Source: Methylobacterium sp. NMS14P (GTDB lineage: Bacteria; Pseudomonadota; Alphaproteobacteria; Rhizobiales; Beijerinckiaceae). Taken from it: a stretch of DNA of 64,000 bases. The stretch covers positions 1,178,001 through 1,242,000 of the forward strand of contig NZ_CP087106.1 in NCBI RefSeq assembly GCF_028583545.1. Reading direction: 5' to 3'. Below are positions 28,924-40,119 of this stretch, one piece after another (position 1 is the stretch's first letter; the number at the start of each line of letters is the position of its first letter). The notes below the pieces were generated by a model. That model saw only the letters and a list, made by a program, of their open reading frames with translations. It ran no database searches and was not told the DNA's origin. Position numbers and translations under genes: made by a program.

Positions 28924-29919
28924 TCAGATCACGAACAGCAGGTTCAGTCCGGCGCGCCGGAACCCGTCCTCGGCGATCTTCAGATCGAGCCCGTAGGACG
29001 CGATGTCGTCCGCCACCGGGTCGAGGGCCGGCGCGCGGTGCTGGTGGAGGTGCTTGATGTAGCTGTGGCAGGTCGTGCAGGTCTCGACCTGAACGTCCTT
29101 CGAGACCTCGTCGAGCCCGTAATAGCTGACGCCCTCGCCGTCGCCGCAGGCGGTGCAGCGGATCCGGACGTGGTTCCAGTACGTGCCGCAGAGCGAGCAG
29201 CTGAGATACCGGGCCTTGTCGGCCGGGGTCCAGGAGACGATGACGCTCGCCACCGGCGCGCCGCCGCAGCACGGGCAGACGCCGTCCGCCACCGGCTTCA
29301 GCGTCTTCGTGTCGAGGCGCGCGGCCTGCCCGGCGAGGCGCACCTGCAGCGCGGCCGAGACGAACACGCATTCGGCGATCCGGTCCACCGGCAGCGCGCC
29401 CTCGAAGACCTGAACGGCGAGATCGAGGCGATCCTCCCGTGAGGCGGCCCGCAGGGCGTCCCGCGCCGCGGCCGAAGCCTCGGGCGCGGTCGAGAGATCC
29501 AGCTCGGCGAGCAGCGACAGAAGGGACGCGTCGAAACCCGGGTCGGCCTCGAGGCTGTGCCGCGACAGCGGCGGCATGCCGTGCTCGCTCCGCAGCGCCT
29601 GATCGGCGGCCTCCGGAGCCGCGGGGGCGGGAAACTGCGCCTGGATCACCGACTGGGCCCGCGCGACCTCGCTCACGAACCGGAGATAGGCCTCCAGCGG
29701 GTGCCCGGGCGCGGCCCCCGCCAAGCGCGCGGCCCGGTCGGCGAACAGCGTGGCGGGATCGGGCAGGCGGACGAACGGCACCGAGCCCGAGATCCCGATC
29801 TTGTCGGGGTCGGGCTTCAGCTCGCTGAAATCCCGGCGGCGGGGCTTCGGCGCCTCGGCGGGTGTCGGGCTCTTGCCCGCGGCCGGTGCCGCGGGTTTGC
29901 GCTTGAAGAAATTGGCCAA
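28924..29919 (-). CDS. fdhE: formate dehydrogenase accessory protein FdhE
   Basis: A 331-residue protein of the FdhE family, needed for maturation of membrane-bound formate dehydrogenase. Its C-terminal half has the rubredoxin-like iron-binding cysteines: CPCCGGAP near residue 215, CSLCGTYWNHVRIRCTACG near 245-262 and ETCTTCHSYIKHLHQHRA near 285-300. The N-terminal 30 residues are Lys/Pro/Ala-rich and poorly conserved. It is the last gene of the fdn operon, starting 3 bases after the fdnI stop. A terminator was not obvious before the convergent quinone reductase. Confidence 0.95.
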   Translation of the reverse strand: MANFFKRKPAAPAAGKSPTPAEAPKPRRRDFSELKPDPDKIGISGSVPFVRLPDPATLFADRAARLAGAAPGHPLEAYLRFVSEVARAQSVIQAQFPAPAAPEAADQALRSEHGMPPLSRHSLEADPGFDASLLSLLAELDLSTAPEASAAARDALRAASREDRLDLAVQVFEGALPVDRIAECVFVSAALQVRLAGQAARLDTKTLKPVADGVCPCCGGAPVASVIVSWTPADKARYLSCSLCGTYWNHVRIRCTACGDGEGVSYYGLDEVSKDVQVETCTTCHSYIKHLHQHRAPALDPVADDIASYGLDLKIAEDGFRRAGLNLLFVI

Positions 29920-29922
29920 GAC

Positions 29923-30645
29923 TCAGGATCCGCGCTTGTCCACCGAGCCGTGGCGCGCCTTGCCGCCTGCGATCTGGCGGAACCACTTGCGGTGGTGCCG
30001 GTAGGCCCAGCCGCCCGTGACCGTGCCGCGGACCATCGCCCGGCCGGTGCCGCGCACCCAGATGCCGGCGTAGATGTGCACCACGATGATCGCGATGGCG
30101 ATCACGGCGGCGAGCGAGTGGGCGAGCAGCGCCCAGCGCTGGGTCTCGATCGAGGTCAGCCCGCCGAAATAGGTGTTCCAGATCACCAGCCCGGTCACGA
30201 ACATCACGCCGATCAGCGCGGTCTGACCCCAGAACACGCCCTTCTGACCGGCATTGTACTTGCCGAGTTCCGGGAGCCGGTCGTCGCGGTTGGTGACCAC
30301 GTCGCCGATGTGCTTCGTCCACTCGACATCGTCCTTGTTGGGGATGTTGAGCTTCCAGAAGCGCACGAACAGGAAGAAGAAGCTGACCGCCAGCGCCACG
30401 CCGAACCACGGGTGAACCGCCCGGGTCGCCTGGCCGCCACCGAACAGGCCGGTCAACGAGAACAGGTAGGGCGTGAACATCGCCAAGCCCGACAGGGTCA
30501 GCAGCGTGAACAGGATCGCGGTGATCCAGTGGTTCACGCGCTGCACGCCGGTGTAGCGCGGGACGTACATCACCTCGGGCGCCGCGGACTTGGCGTGGTG
30601 GAGGGGGCGGGAATCGCCGTCCCGGACATCGTTCTGGATCGTCAT
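29923..30645 (-). CDS. fdnI: formate dehydrogenase cytochrome b556 (gamma) subunit
   Basis: A 240-residue membrane protein with four hydrophobic helices. Candidate haem-b ligand histidines are in RVNHWITAILF (TM1, near residue 40), RAVHPWFGVAL (TM2), LLAHSLAAVIA (TM3) and VVHIYAGIWVRG (TM4), as in FdnI/FdoI. It receives electrons from the iron-sulfur subunit and reduces quinone. It is separated from fdxH by an unusual 304-base gap containing an inverted repeat, and is followed 3 bases later by fdhE. Confidence 0.94.
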   Translation of the reverse strand: MTIQNDVRDGDSRPLHHAKSAAPEVMYVPRYTGVQRVNHWITAILFTLLTLSGLAMFTPYLFSLTGLFGGGQATRAVHPWFGVALAVSFFFLFVRFWKLNIPNKDDVEWTKHIGDVVTNRDDRLPELGKYNAGQKGVFWGQTALIGVMFVTGLVIWNTYFGGLTSIETQRWALLAHSLAAVIAIAIIVVHIYAGIWVRGTGRAMVRGTVTGGWAYRHHRKWFRQIAGGKARHGSVDKRGS

Positions 30646-30949
30646 CGGCCTTCTCGCGCCTGATGCGGTGCCGGCCCCGCCTCGCGGCGGAGGTGGCTCT
30701 GAAGTTCAAGATAGGGCCTCTGCGCCCCGCCGTCTTCGGTCGCCCGTTTCCGGCTGGATCGCGGGTTCCCTCTCCCGAGCGGGGAGGGGCAGGGTGAGGG
30801 ATGGGAACGATCCGGAGAAGGCGAAACCGGAACCCGCTTCGAGGGCGTGCTCAGGTCTGGACCGTCTCGCCCCTCACCCCGACCCTCTCCCGCACGGGAG
30901 AGGGGGCGGGTCGCGTCACCCGGGCCGGCGGGCCAGCCCGGGGTTCGTC
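30646..30949. other. 304-base spacer inside the formate dehydrogenase operon
   Basis: It lies between the fdxH stop and the fdnI start on the minus strand. No gene is recognisable. The middle is occupied by two oppositely oriented copies of a CCCTCTCCCG-type element (listed separately). The transcript of this region could fold strongly, affecting the ratio of subunits or the stability of the two mRNA halves. Confidence 0.5.
30768..30905. repeat. inverted pair of CCCTCTCCC-type extragenic elements
   Basis: CCCTCTCCCGAGCGGGGAGG plus GCAGGGTGAGGG at 30768-30800 is mirrored by CCCTCACCCCGACCCTCTCC plus CGCACGGGAGAGGG at about 30871-30905. Each arm has its own small hairpin and the two arms can also pair with each other. 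Elements of this type are dispersed in many proteobacterial genomes (recollection); only this pair is seen in the window. Confidence 0.65.
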
Positions 30950-31885
30950 TCAGTGCGGCCGGGCCTCGCCGCCGCCATTCTCGCGGCGCTTGGCCTCGTC
31001 GTACTCAACCGCCTCTTCCTCCTCCTCGGGCACGACCTCGTTCGGGCCGGCCGTCACGTAGTGGAAGAAGCCCGCGACCGCGGCGAAGCCCATCGCGGCG
31101 AGCCCGAACACCTTGGCGCCGCCCTTCCAGAAGGCGACCAGCGGCGAGATCTTCGGGTCGTTCGGCAGGCCCGCGTAGAGGCTCGGCTGGTCGGCGTGGT
31201 GCAGCACGTACATGACGTGCGTGCCGCCGACCCCGGCCGGGTCATAGAGACCCGCCTTGTCGAACCCGCGCGACTTCAGGTCCTCGACGCGGTCGTGGGC
31301 CTGATCGATCATGGCCTGCTTGGTGCCGAACATGATCGAGCCGGTCGGGCAGGCCTTGGCGCAGGCCGGTGCCTGACCCACCGCCACCCGGTCCGAGCAC
31401 AGGGTGCACTTGTACGCCTTGTGGTCGGTCTGGCTGATGCGCGGGATGTTGAACGGGCAGCCCTTCACGCAGTAGCCGCAGCCGATGCAGTTCTCCTCGA
31501 TGAAGTCGACGATGCCGTTGGAGTACTGCACGATCGCACCGGGCGACGGGCAGGCCTTCAGGCAGCCCGGCTCGGTGCAGTGCATGCAGCCGTCCTTGCG
31601 GATCAGCCACTCGAGGTTGTTGGTCTCCGGGTTCTCGTACTCGGTGAACCGCATCAGGGTCCACGACTTCGGCGTGAGGTCGTGGGGGTTCTGGTAGGTG
31701 CCCGTGTTGACACCGATGTCGTCGCGCAGGTCGTTCCACTCCTCGCAGGCCGACTGGCAGGCCTTGCAGCCGATGCACTTCGACACGTCGATGAGTTTAG
31801 CGACCTCCACTTGGCGGCGGATCTCCGGCGGCGTCTCCGTGGAGGCGGAGCGCTGGCGGATGTCGAGGGAGCTGTAGTCAGCCAT
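30950..31885 (-). CDS. fdxH: formate dehydrogenase iron-sulfur (beta) subunit
   Basis: A 311-residue ferredoxin-type subunit with four [4Fe-4S] motifs: [14 protein letters not shown] (residues about 38-51), [14 protein letters not shown] near 98, [16 protein letters not shown] near 133 and [20 protein letters not shown] near 160. A single C-terminal hydrophobic helix near 260-280 anchors it to the membrane, followed by an acidic tail ([15 protein letters not shown]), as in FdnH/FdoH. It starts 16 bases after the fdnG stop. It carries electrons from the molybdopterin subunit to the cytochrome b subunit. Confidence 0.95.
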
Positions 31886-31900
31886 GTCTGCCGCTCCCCC

Positions 31901-34900
31901 TTACGCGACCGCGTCCGACGGAGGCGTGGTCGGCTCGATATTCACGAGCCAGGCCTTGAACTCCGGCGTCTCGGTGTTCGCGTCGCCGACGACGGGCGTC
32001 AGCGAGTTCGGGTGCCATCCTTTCTTGGTGTGGCCCATGAAGCCCCAGTGCTGCGGGATGCCGACGACGTGGACGGGCTTGCCGTCGCAGATCAGCGGCT
32101 TGATCCGCTTCGTCACCACGGCCTTGGCCTTCAGGGAGCCGCGTTTCGACCAGACGCGGACCCAGCCGCCCTTGGCGATGCCCTTCTCCTTGGCGAGCTC
32201 CTCCGAGATCTCCACGAAGGCCTCCGGCTGGAGGATCGCGTTGATCCGGGCGTGCTTGGTCCACCCGTGGAAGTGCTCGGTCAGGCGGTAGCTCGTCGCC
32301 GCGTAGGGGAACTCCTTCGCGTCGCCGAGATCGGCCAGGTCGTCCTTGAAGATGCGGGACGCGGGCGCGCCCTTGATCTTCGGGAAGGCGAGGTTGGCCA
32401 CCGGGGACTCGAAGGGCTCGTAGTGCGCCGGGAACGGCCCGTCGCGCATGAGACCGCGGGTCCACAGGCGGGCGACGCCCTCCTGGTTCAGGATGAACGG
32501 GCCGACGCCCTTATCGGGGGCGACGGTGACGCCGTAATCCGGCACGTCGAAGCCGATCCACTGCTTGCCGTTCCACTCGATGAGCTTCTTCTTCTCCGAC
32601 CACGGGCGGCCCTCGGGGTCGCACGAGGCGCGGTTGTAGAGCACGCGCCGGTTGGCCGGCCACGCGAAGGCCCAGTTCGGCGCGATGCCGCGGTCGCCGG
32701 GATCGGTGTTGTCCCGGCGGGCCATCATGTTGCCCTTCTCGGTGTAGCAGCCCGAGTAGATCCAGCAGCCGCAGGCGGTCGTCCCGTCGTCCTTGAGCTG
32801 GGCGAAGCCGTCGACCTGCTTGCCCGCCGGGATGACGGTCCCGTTGAGGTCCGGCGTCGGCGCCAGCGTGTAGCCGTTGAGCTCGCGGGCGAGCTCGGTC
32901 GGGGTCGGCGCCTCGGCGATCGCGTAGTCCCACTTCAGATTGACGATCGGGTCCGGGAAGGCCCCGCCGTCCTTCTTGTAGGCCGCCTTCACGCGGAGGA
33001 AGATCTCCGACATGATCTCGATGTCCGAGCGGCACTCGCCCGGCGCTTCCTGCGCCTGCCAGTGCCACTGCAGCCACCGGCTGGAGTTCGACAGCGAGCC
33101 TTCCTCCTCCACGAACAGGGTGGTCGGAAGCTCGAACACCTCGGTCTGGATCTTGGTCGGATCGACGTCGTTGTACTCGCCGTGGTTCTCCCAGAACCGG
33201 GCCGTCTCCGTCTTGAGCGGGTCCATCACCACGATGAACTTCATCTTGGAGAAGGCTTCCGTCATCTTGGCGCGATTCGGGAACGACAGCAGGGGGTTGA
33301 AGCCCTGGATGACGTAGCCGGTCATCTTGCCCTGCTTGGCGAGCTCGAACCCACGGATCACGTCGTAGGTCGGCACGTCGAGCTTGGGCAGGTAATCGTA
33401 CGCCCAGTCGTTCTCCTTGGTGGCCTTGTCGCCCCACATCGCCTTCTGGAACGAGACGAAGAACTTGTTGTAGTTCTGCCAGTAGCTCGTCTGGCCGGGA
33501 CGCAGCGGCTTGAATTGCCGCTTGGCGATGTAGCTCGCGTAGTCGGGCTCCTTCTCCACCGGAATGTTCAAGTACCCGGGGATGAGGTTCGACATCAGCC
33601 CGATATCGGTCAGCCCCTGGATGTTGGAGTGACCGCGCAGCGCCTGCATGCCGCCGCCGAGCACGCCGATATTCCCGAGCAGGGTCTGCACGATGCACAT
33701 CGAGCGGATGTTCTGCGAGCCCTTGGAGTGATGGGTCCAGCCGAGCGCGTAGAGCGAGGCCATCGACTTCTCGGGAGAAGCCGTCGTCGCCATCATCTCG
33801 CAGACCTTCAGGAAGGTCTCCTTGGGCGAGCCGCAGATCTTCTCGACCATCTCGGGCGTGTAGATCGAGACGTGCTTCTTCAGCAGCTGCATCACGCAGC
33901 GCGGGTGCTGCATGGTCTCGTCGACCACGGCGTAGCCGTCGGGGCCGATCTCGTAGTCCCAGGTGGTCTTGTCGTAGTCGCGCTTGTCCGCGTCGTAGCC
34001 CGTGAACAGCCCCTCGCTGAAGTCGTAGCCCTCGCGGACCACGTACCCGGCGTTGGTGTAGGCGGAGACGTAGCGGTGCTGCAGCTTGTCGTTGTCGAGC
34101 AGGTACTTGGCCACGCCCGACAGGAACGCGATGTCCGAGCCCTGCCGGATCGGGCAGTAGAGATCGGCCACCGACGCCGTGCGGGTGAAGCGCGGATCGA
34201 CGACGATCAGCTTGGCGTTGTTATGGGCTTTCGCCTCCACGACCCACTTGAAGCCGCAGGGGTGCGCCTCGGCGGCATTGCCGCCCATCACGGTGATCAC
34301 GTCCGCGTGCTTGATGTCCATCCAGAGGTTGGTCATCGCACCGCGTCCGAAGGAGGGCGCCAAACTGGCGACCGACGGACCGTGTCAAACTCTGGCCTGG
34401 TTATCGAAGACCAGGGCCCCCATGCTTCGGACTGTCTTGTAGGTCAGCCAGGCCGTCTCGTTGGTGGTGGCCGAGGCGCCCAGGAAGCCCATCGTGGTCC
34501 AGCGGTTGACCGTGAGGTCGCCGTTCTTGGCCACGAAGTTCTTGTCCCGGTCCTCTTTAAGGAGGGCCGCGATCCGGTCGAGGGCGAAGTCCCAGGACAC
34601 GCGCTTGAACTCCGAGGAGCCCGGAGCGCGGTGGAGCGGGTACTTGGTGCGGGTCTCCGCGTGCACGAAGTCGAGCAGCGCCGAGCCTTTCGGGCAGAGC
34701 GTGCCGCGGTTGACCGGATGATCCGGGTCGCCCTCGATATGCATGACCGAGGAGCGCGCGTTCTTCGAACGGTCGCCCAGGCTGTACAGGATTACGCCGC
34801 ACGCGACCGAGCAGTACGGGCAGGTGTTGCGGGTCTCGCGCATCTGCGCGAGCTTGTACGGCCGCACCGCGGCGGCCATGGCGGGCTCGAGTCCGCCGAA

Positions 34901-34981
34901 TCCGAGCGCGCCCAGCGAGCCGCCCGCGAGGCCGGCACCGGCCCCCTTGAGCAGGCCACGCCTTGAGACCTGGACCGTCAT
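31901..34981 (-). CDS. fdnG: formate dehydrogenase-N alpha subunit, selenocysteine-containing (in-frame TGA)
   Basis: One 1026-residue gene read through an in-frame TGA at 34387-34385, decoded as selenocysteine 199. N-terminal to it: a Tat signal SRRGLLKGAGAG (residues 6-17), the [4Fe-4S] cysteines Cys54, Cys57, Cys61 and Cys96 (NTCPYCSVACG, GTLCPKGS). The sequence DNQARV-U-HGPSVASLAPSFGRGAMTN aligns with E. coli FdnG around its Sec196. Then follow GGNAAEAHPCGFKW, VDPRFTRTASVADLY and the molybdopterin-guanine-dinucleotide domains to the end. Total length fits the family (E. coli 1015). It oxidises formate on the periplasmic face. Start ATG 34981 has CGGAG upstream. Naive gene calling splits this gene at the TGA. 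Confidence 0.95.
34350..34387 (-). promoter_or_regulatory. bacterial SECIS element of fdnG
   Basis: Starting at the TGA, the transcript reads UGACACGGUCCGUCGG then UCGCCAGUUUGGCGCCC. It folds as GG-U-CGCC-A / U-GGCG-C-CC with an apical GUU loop. The loop G is 20 bases after the UGA, the same spacing as the GUC loop of E. coli fdnG (from memory), and the apical GU that SelB recognises is kept. Confidence 0.85.
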
Positions 34982-35134
34982 CTCCGCTCCGTAAAAGCGA
35001 TCTGGTATAATTCCAGGGTGTCCCAAAAAAGCGTGTTCGAGGCAAGTGCGGTTGCGTGACACAGCAAGTCGCCGTGTCTCAGCCGAAGCAACACGTTTGT
35101 CGCACCGGCATCATCCTGCATGAAAACACTTTTT

Positions 35135-35857: not shown

Positions 35858-36299
35858 CGCGGATCGCCGCTGGCCGGGCAGTCCGCCGGGCAGCCCACCG
35901 TGAAGTACGCCGGGAAGTCCGCCGAAAAGTCCGGGATCGCCGCCGCGCGGAGCACGGCGCATGCGCGCCGCCAACGTGCCCGTCAACGTGCACCGCCAGC
36001 GCGCCGAACGCCACACGATGTGCGCCAGAACACATAAGATTGTTCGTTCTGAGAAACCCAGATCGGCGCAGCGATTCTTCTACGGCGGCGCCGCCGTGGA
36101 GAAGATCCATGCGTTCTTCCGACCTACCGCCCTGAGTTCTCTTGCCTTTCCAGCCCGATCATCGATCTTGATCGCGCTACGCCATCGCGCAGGTCCGCAT
36201 CCGAGACTTGACTTCGTTCGATAAAACGAACGATTCCCGGCGTCTCGGGGACGTCTGTCCCCTGCGTCGCAACCGCGGATGGCTGGGGGATCGGACGTG
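35858..36299. other. 442-base intergenic region upstream of the sulfate operon
   Basis: No convincing gene on either strand. The first 150 bases are GC-rich; the rest is locally A/T-rich (ACACATAAGATTGTTCGTTC; CGATCATCGATCTTGATCGC), unusual here and promoter-like. It contains TTGACT at 36208 followed immediately by a perfect 20-bp palindromic site at 36214 (separate entry). Confidence 0.5.
36214..36233. promoter_or_regulatory. candidate operator TCGTTCG-ATAAAA-CGAACGA before the sulfate-binding protein gene
   Basis: A perfect inverted repeat with 7-bp arms and a 6-base A/T centre begins right after TTGACT (36208-36213, a good -35 match), so a bound protein would overlap the promoter spacer. 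It lies 67 bases before the ATG of the sulfate operon. A sulfur-responsive regulator is a reasonable guess; none is encoded next to it. Confidence 0.5.
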
Positions 36300-37337
36300 A
36301 TGAAGAACGCTTCAGGTCGGGGTCGGATGGCTCGGGCGATCGGGCTCTCCCTTCTGGCCGGAGCAGGCCTGCTGGCCTGCGCGTTGCCGGCCGCGGCCGA
36401 GACCGCGCTCCTCAACGTCTCGTACGATCCGACCCGCGAGCTCTACCGCGAGATCAACGCCGCCTTCGCGGAGGAGTGGAAGGCCAAGACCGGCGAGGCC
36501 ATCACGGTGCGGGCCTCGCACGGCGGCTCGGGCGCGCAGGCGCGCACGGTGATCGACGGGGTGGACGCCGACGTGGTCACCCTCGGCATCCCGTCCGACA
36601 TCGACGCGATCGCCAAGCTCACCCGCAAGATCCCCGAGGATTGGCGCAGCAAGCTGCCGAACCAGGGGACGCCCTACACCTCGACGGTGGTGTTCCTCGT
36701 CCGCAAGGGCAACCCGAAGGGCGTCAAGGACTGGGACGACCTGGTCAAGCCGGACGTGAAGGTGATCACCCCGAATCCGAAGACCTCGGCGGGCGGGCGC
36801 TGGAACTTCCTCGCCGCCTGGGGCTACGCCTACGGGAAGGACAAGGACGCCGCGAAGGCCGACGCCTTCGTCGGGCAGGTCTACAAGAACGTGCCGGTGC
36901 TCGACACCGGCGCCCGCGGCTCGACGGTGACCTTCGCGCAGCGCGGTCTCGGCGACGTCCTGCCGACCTGGGAGAACGAGGCCTACCTCGTGCTCCAGGA
37001 GTTCGGCGCTGACAAGTTCGACATCGTCTCGCCGCCGACCTCGATCTACGCCGAGCCGCCGGTGGCCCTGGTGGCGGTCAATGCCGAGCGGAAGGGCACC
37101 ACCAAGGCGGCCCAGGCCTATCTCGACTTCCTCTACAGCGACCGCGCCCAGGCGATCTTCGCCAAGCACCATTACCGGCCGATCCGCCGGGAGGCGGCCG
37201 CCCAGGCGGACCTCGCCCAGCTGCCCGACATCAAGCTGTTCAAGATCGAGGATCTCCAGGGATCCTGGGACGAGATCCAGAAGCGGAACTTCGACGCCGG
37301 CGGTCTGTTCGATCGTCTGAGCCGGGCCGGCCGCTGA
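36300..37337 (+). CDS. sbp: sulfate ABC transporter substrate-binding protein
   Basis: A 345-residue periplasmic sulfate-binding protein of the Sbp/CysP family. Signal peptide about residues 1-34 (LACALPAAAETALL); family signatures are LLNVSYDPTRELYREIN, SHGGSGAQARTVIDGVDADV near residue 78, VITPNPKTSAGGRWNFLAAW near 155, and DTGARGSTVTFAQRGLGDV near 205, which contains sulfate-contacting backbone and serine groups. Starts at ATG 36279, GTG 36297 and ATG 36300 are possible; 36300 has GGGGA at good spacing. First gene of sbp-cysT-cysW-cysA-cysK. Confidence 0.93.
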   Translation: MKNASGRGRMARAIGLSLLAGAGLLACALPAAAETALLNVSYDPTRELYREINAAFAEEWKAKTGEAITVRASHGGSGAQARTVIDGVDADVVTLGIPSDIDAIAKLTRKIPEDWRSKLPNQGTPYTSTVVFLVRKGNPKGVKDWDDLVKPDVKVITPNPKTSAGGRWNFLAAWGYAYGKDKDAAKADAFVGQVYKNVPVLDTGARGSTVTFAQRGLGDVLPTWENEAYLVLQEFGADKFDIVSPPTSIYAEPPVALVAVNAERKGTTKAAQAYLDFLYSDRAQAIFAKHHYRPIRREAAAQADLAQLPDIKLFKIEDLQGSWDEIQKRNFDAGGLFDRLSRAGR

Positions 37338-37348
37338 GGCTTCAGACC

Positions 37349-38203
37349 ATGGTCCAGACGCCCCGTCCCCGTCGGACATTCCGACGGCCGAGCGTGATCC
37401 CGGGCTTCGGGATCAGCTTCGGCTACACGCTGACCTGCCTCGGCCTGATCGTCCTGCTGCCGCTGGCCGGGCTGGTGGTGAAGGCCTCGGGGCTCGGCCT
37501 GTCGGGCATCTGGGATGTCGCCACCGATCCGCGGGTGGCGAGCGCCCTGCGGATCAGCTTCGGCGTCTCGGCCATCGCGGCACTCGTCGCCTCGGCCTTC
37601 GGCTTCCTGGTGGCCTGGGTGCTGACCCGCTACCGCTTCCCGGGCCGCAAGCTGGTCGACGCCGCCGTCGACCTGCCCTTCGCCCTGCCGACCGCGGTCG
37701 CCGGCATCGCGCTCGCCTCGCTGTACGCGCCGGACGGGCTGCTCGGCGCCCCGCTCGCGCGCCTCGGCATCCAGGCGGCCTACACGCCGGTCGGCATCTT
37801 CATCGCCATGGTGTTCATCGGCCTGCCCTTCGCGGTGCGGACCGTGCAGCCGCTGATCGCCGAGATCGACAAGGAGATCGAGGAGGCCTCGGCGACCCTC
37901 GGGGCGACGCGCCTCGTCACCCTCGCCAGAGTGGTGCTGCCGCCGCTGATCCCGGCGGTGCTCACCGGCTTCGCGCTCGCCTTCGCCCGGGGCGTCGGCG
38001 AGTACGGCTCGATCATCTTCATCGCCGGCAACCTGCCCTACGTGTCGGAGATCGCACCGCTCCTGATCGTCATCAAGCTCTCCGAATTCGACTACGGCGG
38101 CGCGGCGGCCATCGCGACGATCATGCTCGGGATCTCGTTCCTGACGCTGCTCGCCATCAATCTCATCCAGGCGTGGTCACGGCGGCGGTTCGGCTATGTC
38201 TGA
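37349..38203 (+). CDS. cysT: sulfate ABC transporter permease CysT (CysU)
   Basis: A 284-residue inner-membrane permease with six to seven hydrophobic helices. It begins [20 protein letters not shown], typical of CysT, and carries the ABC-permease EAA loop [20 protein letters not shown] near residue 175, which docks on the ATPase. [14 protein letters not shown] near 210 is a family hallmark. It starts 11 bases after sbp and overlaps cysW by 8 bases (ATGTCTGA), indicating translational coupling. Confidence 0.95.
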
Positions 38204-39077
38204 AATCTTCTCCCCCGCCTTCGTGCCGGCCGCCAAGCCGGCCCCGGTCGCCTCGGAAGGGGCCGGCGTCCGCGTGGTCCTGATCGGGATCGCGGTGGCG
38301 TTCCTGGCGCTGTTCCTGGTGCTGCCGCTGTTCGCGGTCTTCCTCCAGGCCTTCTCGAAGGGGATCGGCGCCTTCCTGGACGCGTTCCGGGAGCCCGACG
38401 CCTGGAGCGCGATCCGTCTGACGCTGACCGTGGCGGCGATCGCGGTGCCGTTCAACGTCGTGTTCGGCCTGGCCGCCTCCTGGGCGATCGCCAAGTTCGA
38501 GTTTCCCGGCAAGTCGCTGCTGATCACCCTGATCGACCTGCCGTTCTCGGTCTCGCCGGTGGTCTCGGGGATGATCTACGTGCTGCTGTTCGGGTCCCAG
38601 GGCCTGTTCGGATCCTGGCTCGTCGACCACGGCATCCAGATCCTGTTCGCGCTGCCGGGGATCGTGCTGGCGACGGTGTTCGTGACCTTCCCGTTCGTTG
38701 CCCGCGAGCTGATCCCGCTGATGCAGGAGCAGGGCACGGCCGAGGAGGAGGCGGCGCTGACGCTGGGCGCCTCGGGCCTGCACGCGTTCCGCACGGTGAC
38801 GCTGCCCAATATCCGCTGGGGCCTGCTCTACAGCGTGCTCCTGTGCAATGCCCGGGCGATGGGCGAGTTCGGAGCGGTGTCGGTGGTGTCGGGTCACATC
38901 CGCGGCTTGACCAACACTATCCCACTCCACGTGGAGATCCTCTACAATGAGTACAACTTCGTCGCCGCATTCGCCGTCGCTTCGCTCCTCGCTGTCCTTG
39001 CCCTCATCACCCTCGTCCTCAAATCCGTCCTCGAGTGGCGCTTCGCAGGCGAGCTCGCGCACGGCCGGGCGCACTGA
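38196..39077 (+). CDS. cysW: sulfate ABC transporter permease CysW
   Basis: A 293-residue permease, partner of CysT. Six hydrophobic helices, EAA loop [20 protein letters not shown] near residue 187, and [19 protein letters not shown] near 225 are typical. The C-terminal segment [19 protein letters not shown] is well conserved in CysW, which shows that this is the selected frame across the region where the cysA frame also runs open (38947-39077). Codon choice shifts in that stretch (ctt, gct, tca-like triplets in place of ctg, gcg), which may reflect the overlap. Confidence 0.95.
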
Positions 39078-40119
39078 TCGCCCCTCCACGGCGATCCGGG
39101 TCGAGAACGTCTCGAAGACGTTCGACACGGCGGCGGTGCTGCACGATCTGTCGCTGGACGTGCGGGCGGGCGAGCTGATCGGGCTGCTCGGCCCCTCGGG
39201 CTCGGGCAAGACGACGCTGCTGCGGATCATCGCCGGGCTCGACGCGCCGGACCGGGGCCGGATCCTGTTCGGCGGCGACGACGCCACGGGCCTGCCCGTG
39301 CAGGAGCGCGCGGTGGGCTTCGTGTTCCAGCACTACGCCCTGTTCAAGCACATGAGCGTGGCCGACAACATCGCCTACGGGCTGAACGCGCGGCGCCGCG
39401 CCGACCGGCCGGCCAAGGCCGATATCAAGCGCCGGGTCGGCGACCTGCTCGACCTGATCCGGCTCTCAGGGTTCGGCGACCGCTACCCGTCGCAGCTCTC
39501 CGGCGGCCAGCGGCAGCGGGTGGCGCTCGCCCGCGCCCTCGCGGTCGAGCCGCGGGTCCTACTGCTGGACGAGCCGTTCGGGGCGCTCGACGCCCAGGTC
39601 CGCAAGGATCTGCGCCGCTGGCTGCGCGAGATCCACGATCGCACCGGCCAGACCACGATCTTCGTGACCCACGACCAGGACGAGGCGCTGGAGCTGTCCG
39701 ACCGCGTGGCCGTGCTCGACCGCGGCCGCCTCGAGCAGGTCGGCACGCCGGACGAGGTGCAGGAGAACCCGGCCTCGGCGACCGTGATGAAGTTCCTCGG
39801 CGATTCCGTCGAGGTCGAGGCGATCGCCGAGGGCGGCCGGGTGCTGGTCCGGGGCCGGGAGACGCCGGTCGCGGCGCCCGGAAGCCTGTTCGGTCCGGTG
39901 AAGCTCTACGTGCGGCCGTGGCAGCTGCAGCTCGCCGAGCCCGAGGCCGCGCACCTGTCCGGCACCGTGCGCAGCTCGTACCGGACGCAGGGCCGCCAGC
40001 GGATCGAGGTGGCCGACCCCGAGGGGCGGGTGCTGGCGGTGGAGGATTTCGACGGCGTGCGCTACCCGGCCGGGCACCCGGTCGGCCTGCGGATCAACGG
40101 CGGGCACGTGTTCGGGTGA
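38947..40119 (+). CDS. cysA: sulfate/thiosulfate ABC transporter ATP-binding protein
   Basis: ABC ATPase energising CysT/CysW. Walker [14 protein letters not shown] near residue 82, Q-loop [11 protein letters not shown] near 120, signature [15 protein letters not shown] near 182, Walker [15 protein letters not shown] near 202, H-loop [14 protein letters not shown] near 235, then a C-terminal TOBE-like regulatory domain. The only ATG in frame upstream of the conserved [10 protein letters not shown] is at 38947, which overlaps cysW by 131 bases and would add a 45-residue Ser/Pro-rich extension; TTG 38998 is an alternative. The true start is therefore uncertain. Confidence 0.92.

Follow-up and report, generated by a model that had tools for sequence, protein, structure and literature searches.

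Within the DNA analysed here (the window, a stretch of 64,000 nucleotides at C1:1178001-1242000 of a 6.88 Mb Methylobacterium genome), the gene encoding the alpha subunit of formate dehydrogenase-N, fdnG, carries an in-frame TGA, which raises the question of whether this codon terminates translation or is decoded as selenocysteine (Sec). Among bacterial selenoprotein families, that of the formate dehydrogenase alpha subunit has the widest distribution according to the sections consulted of a 2026 review (PMC13188914), and a Sec-containing formate dehydrogenase on its own is a well-known arrangement and expected biology. The features relevant to the question are collected in Table 1.

Table 1. 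Position of the formate dehydrogenase operon, its recoding signals and the genes related to selenocysteine; window coordinates except for the last five features, which lie outside the window
Feature	Position	Strand	Remarks
fdnG, formate dehydrogenase-N alpha subunit	31901..34981	minus	1026 aa when the TGA is read through, Sec at residue 199
In-frame TGA, predicted selenocysteine codon	34385..34387	minus	opposite X of 1kqf_A; TGA in 71/73 relatives
SECIS_3 element (RF01989), TGA included	34332..34390	minus	63.9 bits, model 1-59 of 59
SECIS hairpin, paired part	34342..34384	minus	apical loop 34363-34365, starting with GU
fdnH, formate dehydrogenase beta (iron-sulfur) subunit	30950..31885	minus	TIGR01582 464 bits, cut-off 334.7
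fdnI, formate dehydrogenase gamma (cytochrome b) subunit	29923..30645	minus	TIGR01583 177 bits, cut-off 115.85
fdhE, formate dehydrogenase accessory protein	28924..29919	minus	TIGR01562 253 bits, cut-off 187.65
selA	5803035-5804150		outside window
selD	5940477-5941406		outside window
selB1	match 3460925-3463051 (C1; L003)		over SelB cut-off
selB2	match 490756-492741 (C1; L002)		over SelB cut-off
Family-5 solute-binding-protein gene	C1:492802-494367 (L110:6803-8368)	minus	just upstream of selB2

The reading frame of fdnG, which was checked, extends from the ATG at 34981 to a terminal stop ending at 31901 and contains a single in-frame TGA. As the original prediction had stated, this codon occupies the Sec position of FdnG, in the context ARV-TGA-HGP (34387-34385, minus strand), and the family continues beyond it with no change of frame: the read-through product scores 1417.3 bits against TIGR01553 (cut-off 814.2), covering positions 1-1008 of the 1009 of the profile. 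Residues 4-1017 align with E. coli FDH-N (1kqf_A), with the TGA opposite its non-standard residue X, and the resulting ARV-U-HGP agrees at the active-site position with the UHxP motif given for Sec formate dehydrogenases in the portion consulted of PMC13188914. The N-terminus is of the Tat type (SRRGLLK, by eye). In subunit make-up, Sec position, alignment of the alpha subunit and class and spacing of the SECIS element, the locus resembles the FdnGHI system of E. coli (1kqf), from which it differs in the scattered genomic positions of fdnG and the sel genes and in the presence of two selB genes. Two further observations concern the surroundings of the operon. An open frame of 1458 codons (window 30590-34966, plus strand) covers the greater part of fdnG and fdnH in antisense orientation and is probably a shadow of the high G+C coding sequence. 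Genes that look by eye like those of a sulfate-type ABC transporter (a binding protein, two permeases and an ATPase) adjoin the operon on the opposite strand (window 36279-40119, plus strand).

The signal expected 3' of the codon was searched for on the minus strand, where the original prediction had placed a stem with an apical GU at the distance found in E. coli fdnG. The SECIS_3 covariance model exceeds its gathering threshold of 63 bits by a narrow margin and is matched completely and without gaps, so the spacing between UGA and hairpin is that of the family; at E <= 0.001, it is the sole match in the genome. While these features of the stem were recovered, its folding energy lends no support, being no better than that of shuffled sequences (z = -0.06), and energy was therefore rejected as evidence in favour of a comparison of relatives. 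For this, the window sequence was aligned with 30 of the 73 relatives described below, chosen for being distinct, with L035 and L070 excluded. With the Rfam structure, both partners of a pair are changed in 27 cells of the alignment; shuffles give 8.3, and 0/500 of them reach the observed value. Pairing of 89% falls to 34-49% once the partners are slid, with helix 1 paired in only 81%. Two of the five measures of covariation are not clearly above the shuffles, namely the count of doubly changed pairs (4, reached in 139/500) and the further pair types (observed value reached in 39/500). In the two pairs that covary most strongly (columns 21:33 and 24:30), both partners are third codon positions, and selection on the protein is thus no explanation for them. 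Taken as sequence evidence, the match to the covariance model, together with the silent covariation among relatives, lifts the predicted fdnG hairpin above chance.

Of 75 fdnG loci taken from the genome collection, two start past the site, leaving 73 for comparison; the closest relatives are mostly named Methylobacterium. Besides the 71 with TGA, one relative presents TNA and one (L070) is disrupted, with the motif not present upstream of the site. Cysteine, whose occurrence in close strains the original prediction had named as evidence against itself, is found in none of the 73. The genome without a stop in fdnG (G068) was considered as a cysteine replacement and rejected: in both of its formate dehydrogenase genes (L107 and L108), the Sec codon includes an ambiguous base, N (TNA in fdnG, TGN in the second gene), which masks the stops. 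Within the genus, FDH-N exceeds the family cut-off in 38/111 genomes, 37 with TGA and one with the ambiguous base in the codon. Some Methylobacterium genomes also encode a second type of formate dehydrogenase alpha subunit (L113, L114, L115 and L116), which has TGA and is matched weakly by SECIS_3 (29-33 bits).

From the lack of selA, selB and selC in the window, the original prediction had deduced that they are carried elsewhere, and a search of the genome locates the complete set, including selD, outside it. Two genes exceed the SelB cut-off, and there is one tRNA-Sec with anticodon TCA, a second RF01852 match over the threshold being a serine tRNA according to ARAGORN, which finds no tRNA in the 64-kb window. 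The presence of this machinery was then tabulated across the genus, after removal of weak SelA matches (G030, G049) and fragmentary SelB matches (G010, G030); G068 was scored as having a Sec formate dehydrogenase despite its ambiguous codons, and G038 despite a truncated gene. A formate dehydrogenase of the fdnG family exceeds the cut-off in 44/111 genomes (38 with FDH-N, 11 with the second type, five with both), and full-length SelA is encoded by 42 of these 44 versus 5/67 of the genomes without such an enzyme. One exception, G038, has no match to SelA or to SelB of either type described below, and its fdnG keeps the TGA and SECIS but has its C-terminus replaced, apparently by decay following loss of the Sec machinery. 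The other, G050 (93% complete), has the enzyme and SelB1 with no SelA match. Conversely, G012 and G097 encode SelA and SelB1, yet neither a formate dehydrogenase over the cut-off nor SelB2; SECIS_3 has no match in the stretches that surround their selA and selB1 genes, and a further selenoprotein may be hidden in these genomes.

Were the TGA a true stop, arising from sequencing error or in a broken gene, fdnG would be non-functional, and the standard code indeed divides it into two open reading frames (34385-35062 and 31901-34363). The original prediction had expected gene calling to report two broken genes for this reason, which holds for the standard code and not for all annotations, since a single fdnG feature underlies the whole match in 4 of the 15 plasmid-record matches listed. 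Termination is, however, very improbable in view of the identical TGA in nearly all relatives, accompanied by the SECIS element and its silent covariation, and of the retention of the whole operon and the sel genes. Decoding as another amino acid has a precedent in other bacteria, in which TGA is recoded, for example as cysteine, by a tRNA-Cys resembling tRNA-Sec. Against it stand the tRNA-Sec (TCA), SelA and SelD of this genome and the fact that SelA accompanies the formate dehydrogenase gene across the genus, so that this reading is more improbable still. The operon architecture, the TGA at the family position, the covarying SECIS, the complete sel set and the co-occurrence with selA all argue for selenocysteine, and the fdnG of this Methylobacterium species almost certainly encodes a Sec formate dehydrogenase-N. 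As the mRNA is translated, SelB with Sec-tRNA-Sec would bind the hairpin just 3' of the UGA, leading to insertion of selenocysteine at the residue given in Table 1. By analogy with the family, its selenium would coordinate the Mo or W at the site of formate oxidation, FdnG would be exported, and electrons would pass through the iron-sulfur clusters of FdnH and the haem of FdnI to quinone.

The two SelB proteins of this genome both carry SelB domains and are 37% identical. SelB1-type proteins (at least 63% identity) are encoded by 45/111 genomes, including 42 of the 44 with formate dehydrogenase; the remaining two are G038 and G069, the latter with another SelB beside selA and fdnG. Stop codons inside the match are reported for 16 of the 45 SelB1 entries, and six SelB1 stretches that were examined, including G012 and G078 from those 16, have no stop within the matched part. 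Going by their listed positions, the genes selB1 and fdnG are neighbours in three genomes (G022, G025 and G040), with a gap below 4 kb, and lie apart in the others, the genome of the window among them. In G025 and G040, fdnG, selB1, selA and tRNA-Sec share one contig stretch, an organisation that resembles the rhizobial fdo/fdn and sel clusters described in the part consulted of PMC8124441, which likewise combine an alphaproteobacterial Sec formate dehydrogenase with sel genes. According to the same part of that source, selC is nested in selB in rhizobia, unlike here, where the selB stretches of L110 and L154 to L161 contain no tRNA according to ARAGORN.

SelB2-type proteins occur in 20/111 genomes, all 20 of which encode SelA and 17 of which have a formate dehydrogenase over the cut-off. 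Each of their 21 loci also includes a gene for a family-5 solute-binding protein that has an in-frame TGA of its own, while no such gene is found in the region of a third SelB type (L122, from G069; 44% identical to SelB2). In 21 of 23 loci, including those of other genera (L147 and L148), this gene is on the same strand as selB2 and ends 61-367 bases before it; in L126 and L127 it is on the opposite strand. An additional 6.6 kb contig (L149) contains the solute-binding gene, with selB2 not in view. Across the 111 genomes, selB1 thus appears to go with the Sec formate dehydrogenase and selB2 with the solute-binding gene, the latter pairing resting on linkage and co-occurrence.

The TGA of the solute-binding gene falls in the same column in 24/24 sequences, that of this genome included, which are 51-97% identical and come from three genera. 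Over the 13 codons that follow it, the encoded amino acids differ only at codon 5, where 3/24 have A in place of P, and silent changes affect eight other codons; such dominance of silent changes is as expected of translated sequence. Upon read-through, the score against the NikA model increases from 22.6 to 68.6 bits (model cut-off 393), and the protein matches SBP_bac_5 with 117 bits. None of its 120 best database relatives extends over more than 63% of the read-through protein, which illustrates how such genes escape notice. The 11 sequences examined start after the TGA, and none of 140 candidates spans the site (query residues 60-215, E <= 0.001), N-terminal fragments falling outside the length limits. 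A cysteine homologue at the Sec position is a usual supporting criterion for a selenoprotein and is not required; no cysteine form was found here, with no cysteine at this position in the two PDB alignments examined. In a Methylobacterium radiotolerans plasmid record, whose gene table is incomplete, the gene lies between a MarR gene and selB and no feature is annotated over it. It is uncommon in the samples, being present in 6/397 genomes of the family (four in the genus) and in 1/385 of the class sample, namely the genome of the window itself.

A hairpin after this TGA is suggested by the pairing GGUCC-GUGGG-GGACU (or GGACC), which can form an apical stem in 24/24 sequences. Rare codons are fixed within it: ACT in 22/24 (1.1% of the Thr codons elsewhere in these genes), GGT in 24/24 (12.9% elsewhere) and GGG in 24/24 (17.1% elsewhere). 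At the sequence level, these codons are better evidence for the putative hairpin than conservation at fourfold sites, which is only moderately raised past the TGA (101/142 comparisons identical, 71%, against a mean of 61% over segments of the gene). Since values of up to 79% occur in other segments, the hairpin does not stand out by this measure, which was set aside. Folding energy was also rejected, as it matches that of synonymous draws, 31-77% of which fold as well in the eight of the 24 sequences tested. The chance of the apical stem under synonymous draws is 0.0085, a value computed after seeing the fold and hence not a clean test. Covariation is weak, with one pair changed on both sides (silently, in L148) and 45/500 shuffles reaching it; the alignment comprised 19 of the 24 sequences, L120, L125, L138 and L150 being repeats over the compared stretch and the distinct L149 being left out. 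None of the Rfam SECIS families matches this hairpin.

With regard to known systems, the closest parallels are SaoX and SaoB, also substrate-binding proteins predicted to hold Sec (Table 1 of PMC13188914, in the portion covered). The solute-binding protein matches neither of the SaoX/SaoB models (NF040735 or NF040727) at E <= 0.1, its nearest models being NikA-like and far under the cut-off, and its Sec context is HWUVID, as opposed to the UxP and CUxxT of SaoX/SaoB. The same review catalogues, in the sections consulted, 119 prokaryotic selenoprotein families or subfamilies, and a family-5 solute-binding protein is absent from the covered portion of its Table 1. Nor is a solute-binding selenoprotein described in the parts consulted of PMC5029168, PMC5322559, PMC9312934, PMC1794560 and PMC8124441, retrieved by a term search of the accessible text of PMC12013277, or apparent from the title or abstract start of any open-licence paper listed, and it is probably uncatalogued.

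Taken together, the solute-binding gene very likely encodes a selenoprotein, and it probably represents a new family of selenoproteins that has its own partner SelB. The product may be a binding protein in which selenium serves as a ligand or redox centre; should it prove to be a selenoprotein, the catalogue would gain a family whose members are not evidently redox enzymes. The broader proposal, that this gene encodes a selenoprotein and that SelB1 and SelB2 are specialised for two different mRNA hairpins, is favoured with moderate confidence. Two Sec-decoding routes would then run in parallel in one genome and have one SelA, one tRNA-Sec and one SelD in common, with SelB1 serving the SECIS of formate dehydrogenase and SelB2 a different hairpin in the solute-binding selenoprotein. 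If true, the specificity between SelB and SECIS could be tested directly in such a cell, which would contain two paralogous SelB proteins, each with a different mRNA partner.

The genes that accompany the solute-binding gene vary among loci. In G046 and G101, in which no formate dehydrogenase of the fdnG family exceeds the cut-off, selB2, selA and tRNA-Sec are arranged consecutively, with the end of the solute-binding gene about 0.8 kb past the tRNA. A cytochrome c-like open reading frame (by eye) separates tRNA-Sec from the solute-binding gene in L126, where a redoxin-family gene with relatives in L127 and L149 adjoins. The solute-binding proteins of these three loci have a signal-like N-terminus, and the other 22 of the 25 start with MDAQATGDPGGG or a similar polar stretch (both by eye). 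Finally, a MarR-type gene related to one beside the copy of the window's genome is found in 13 of the 24 other loci.
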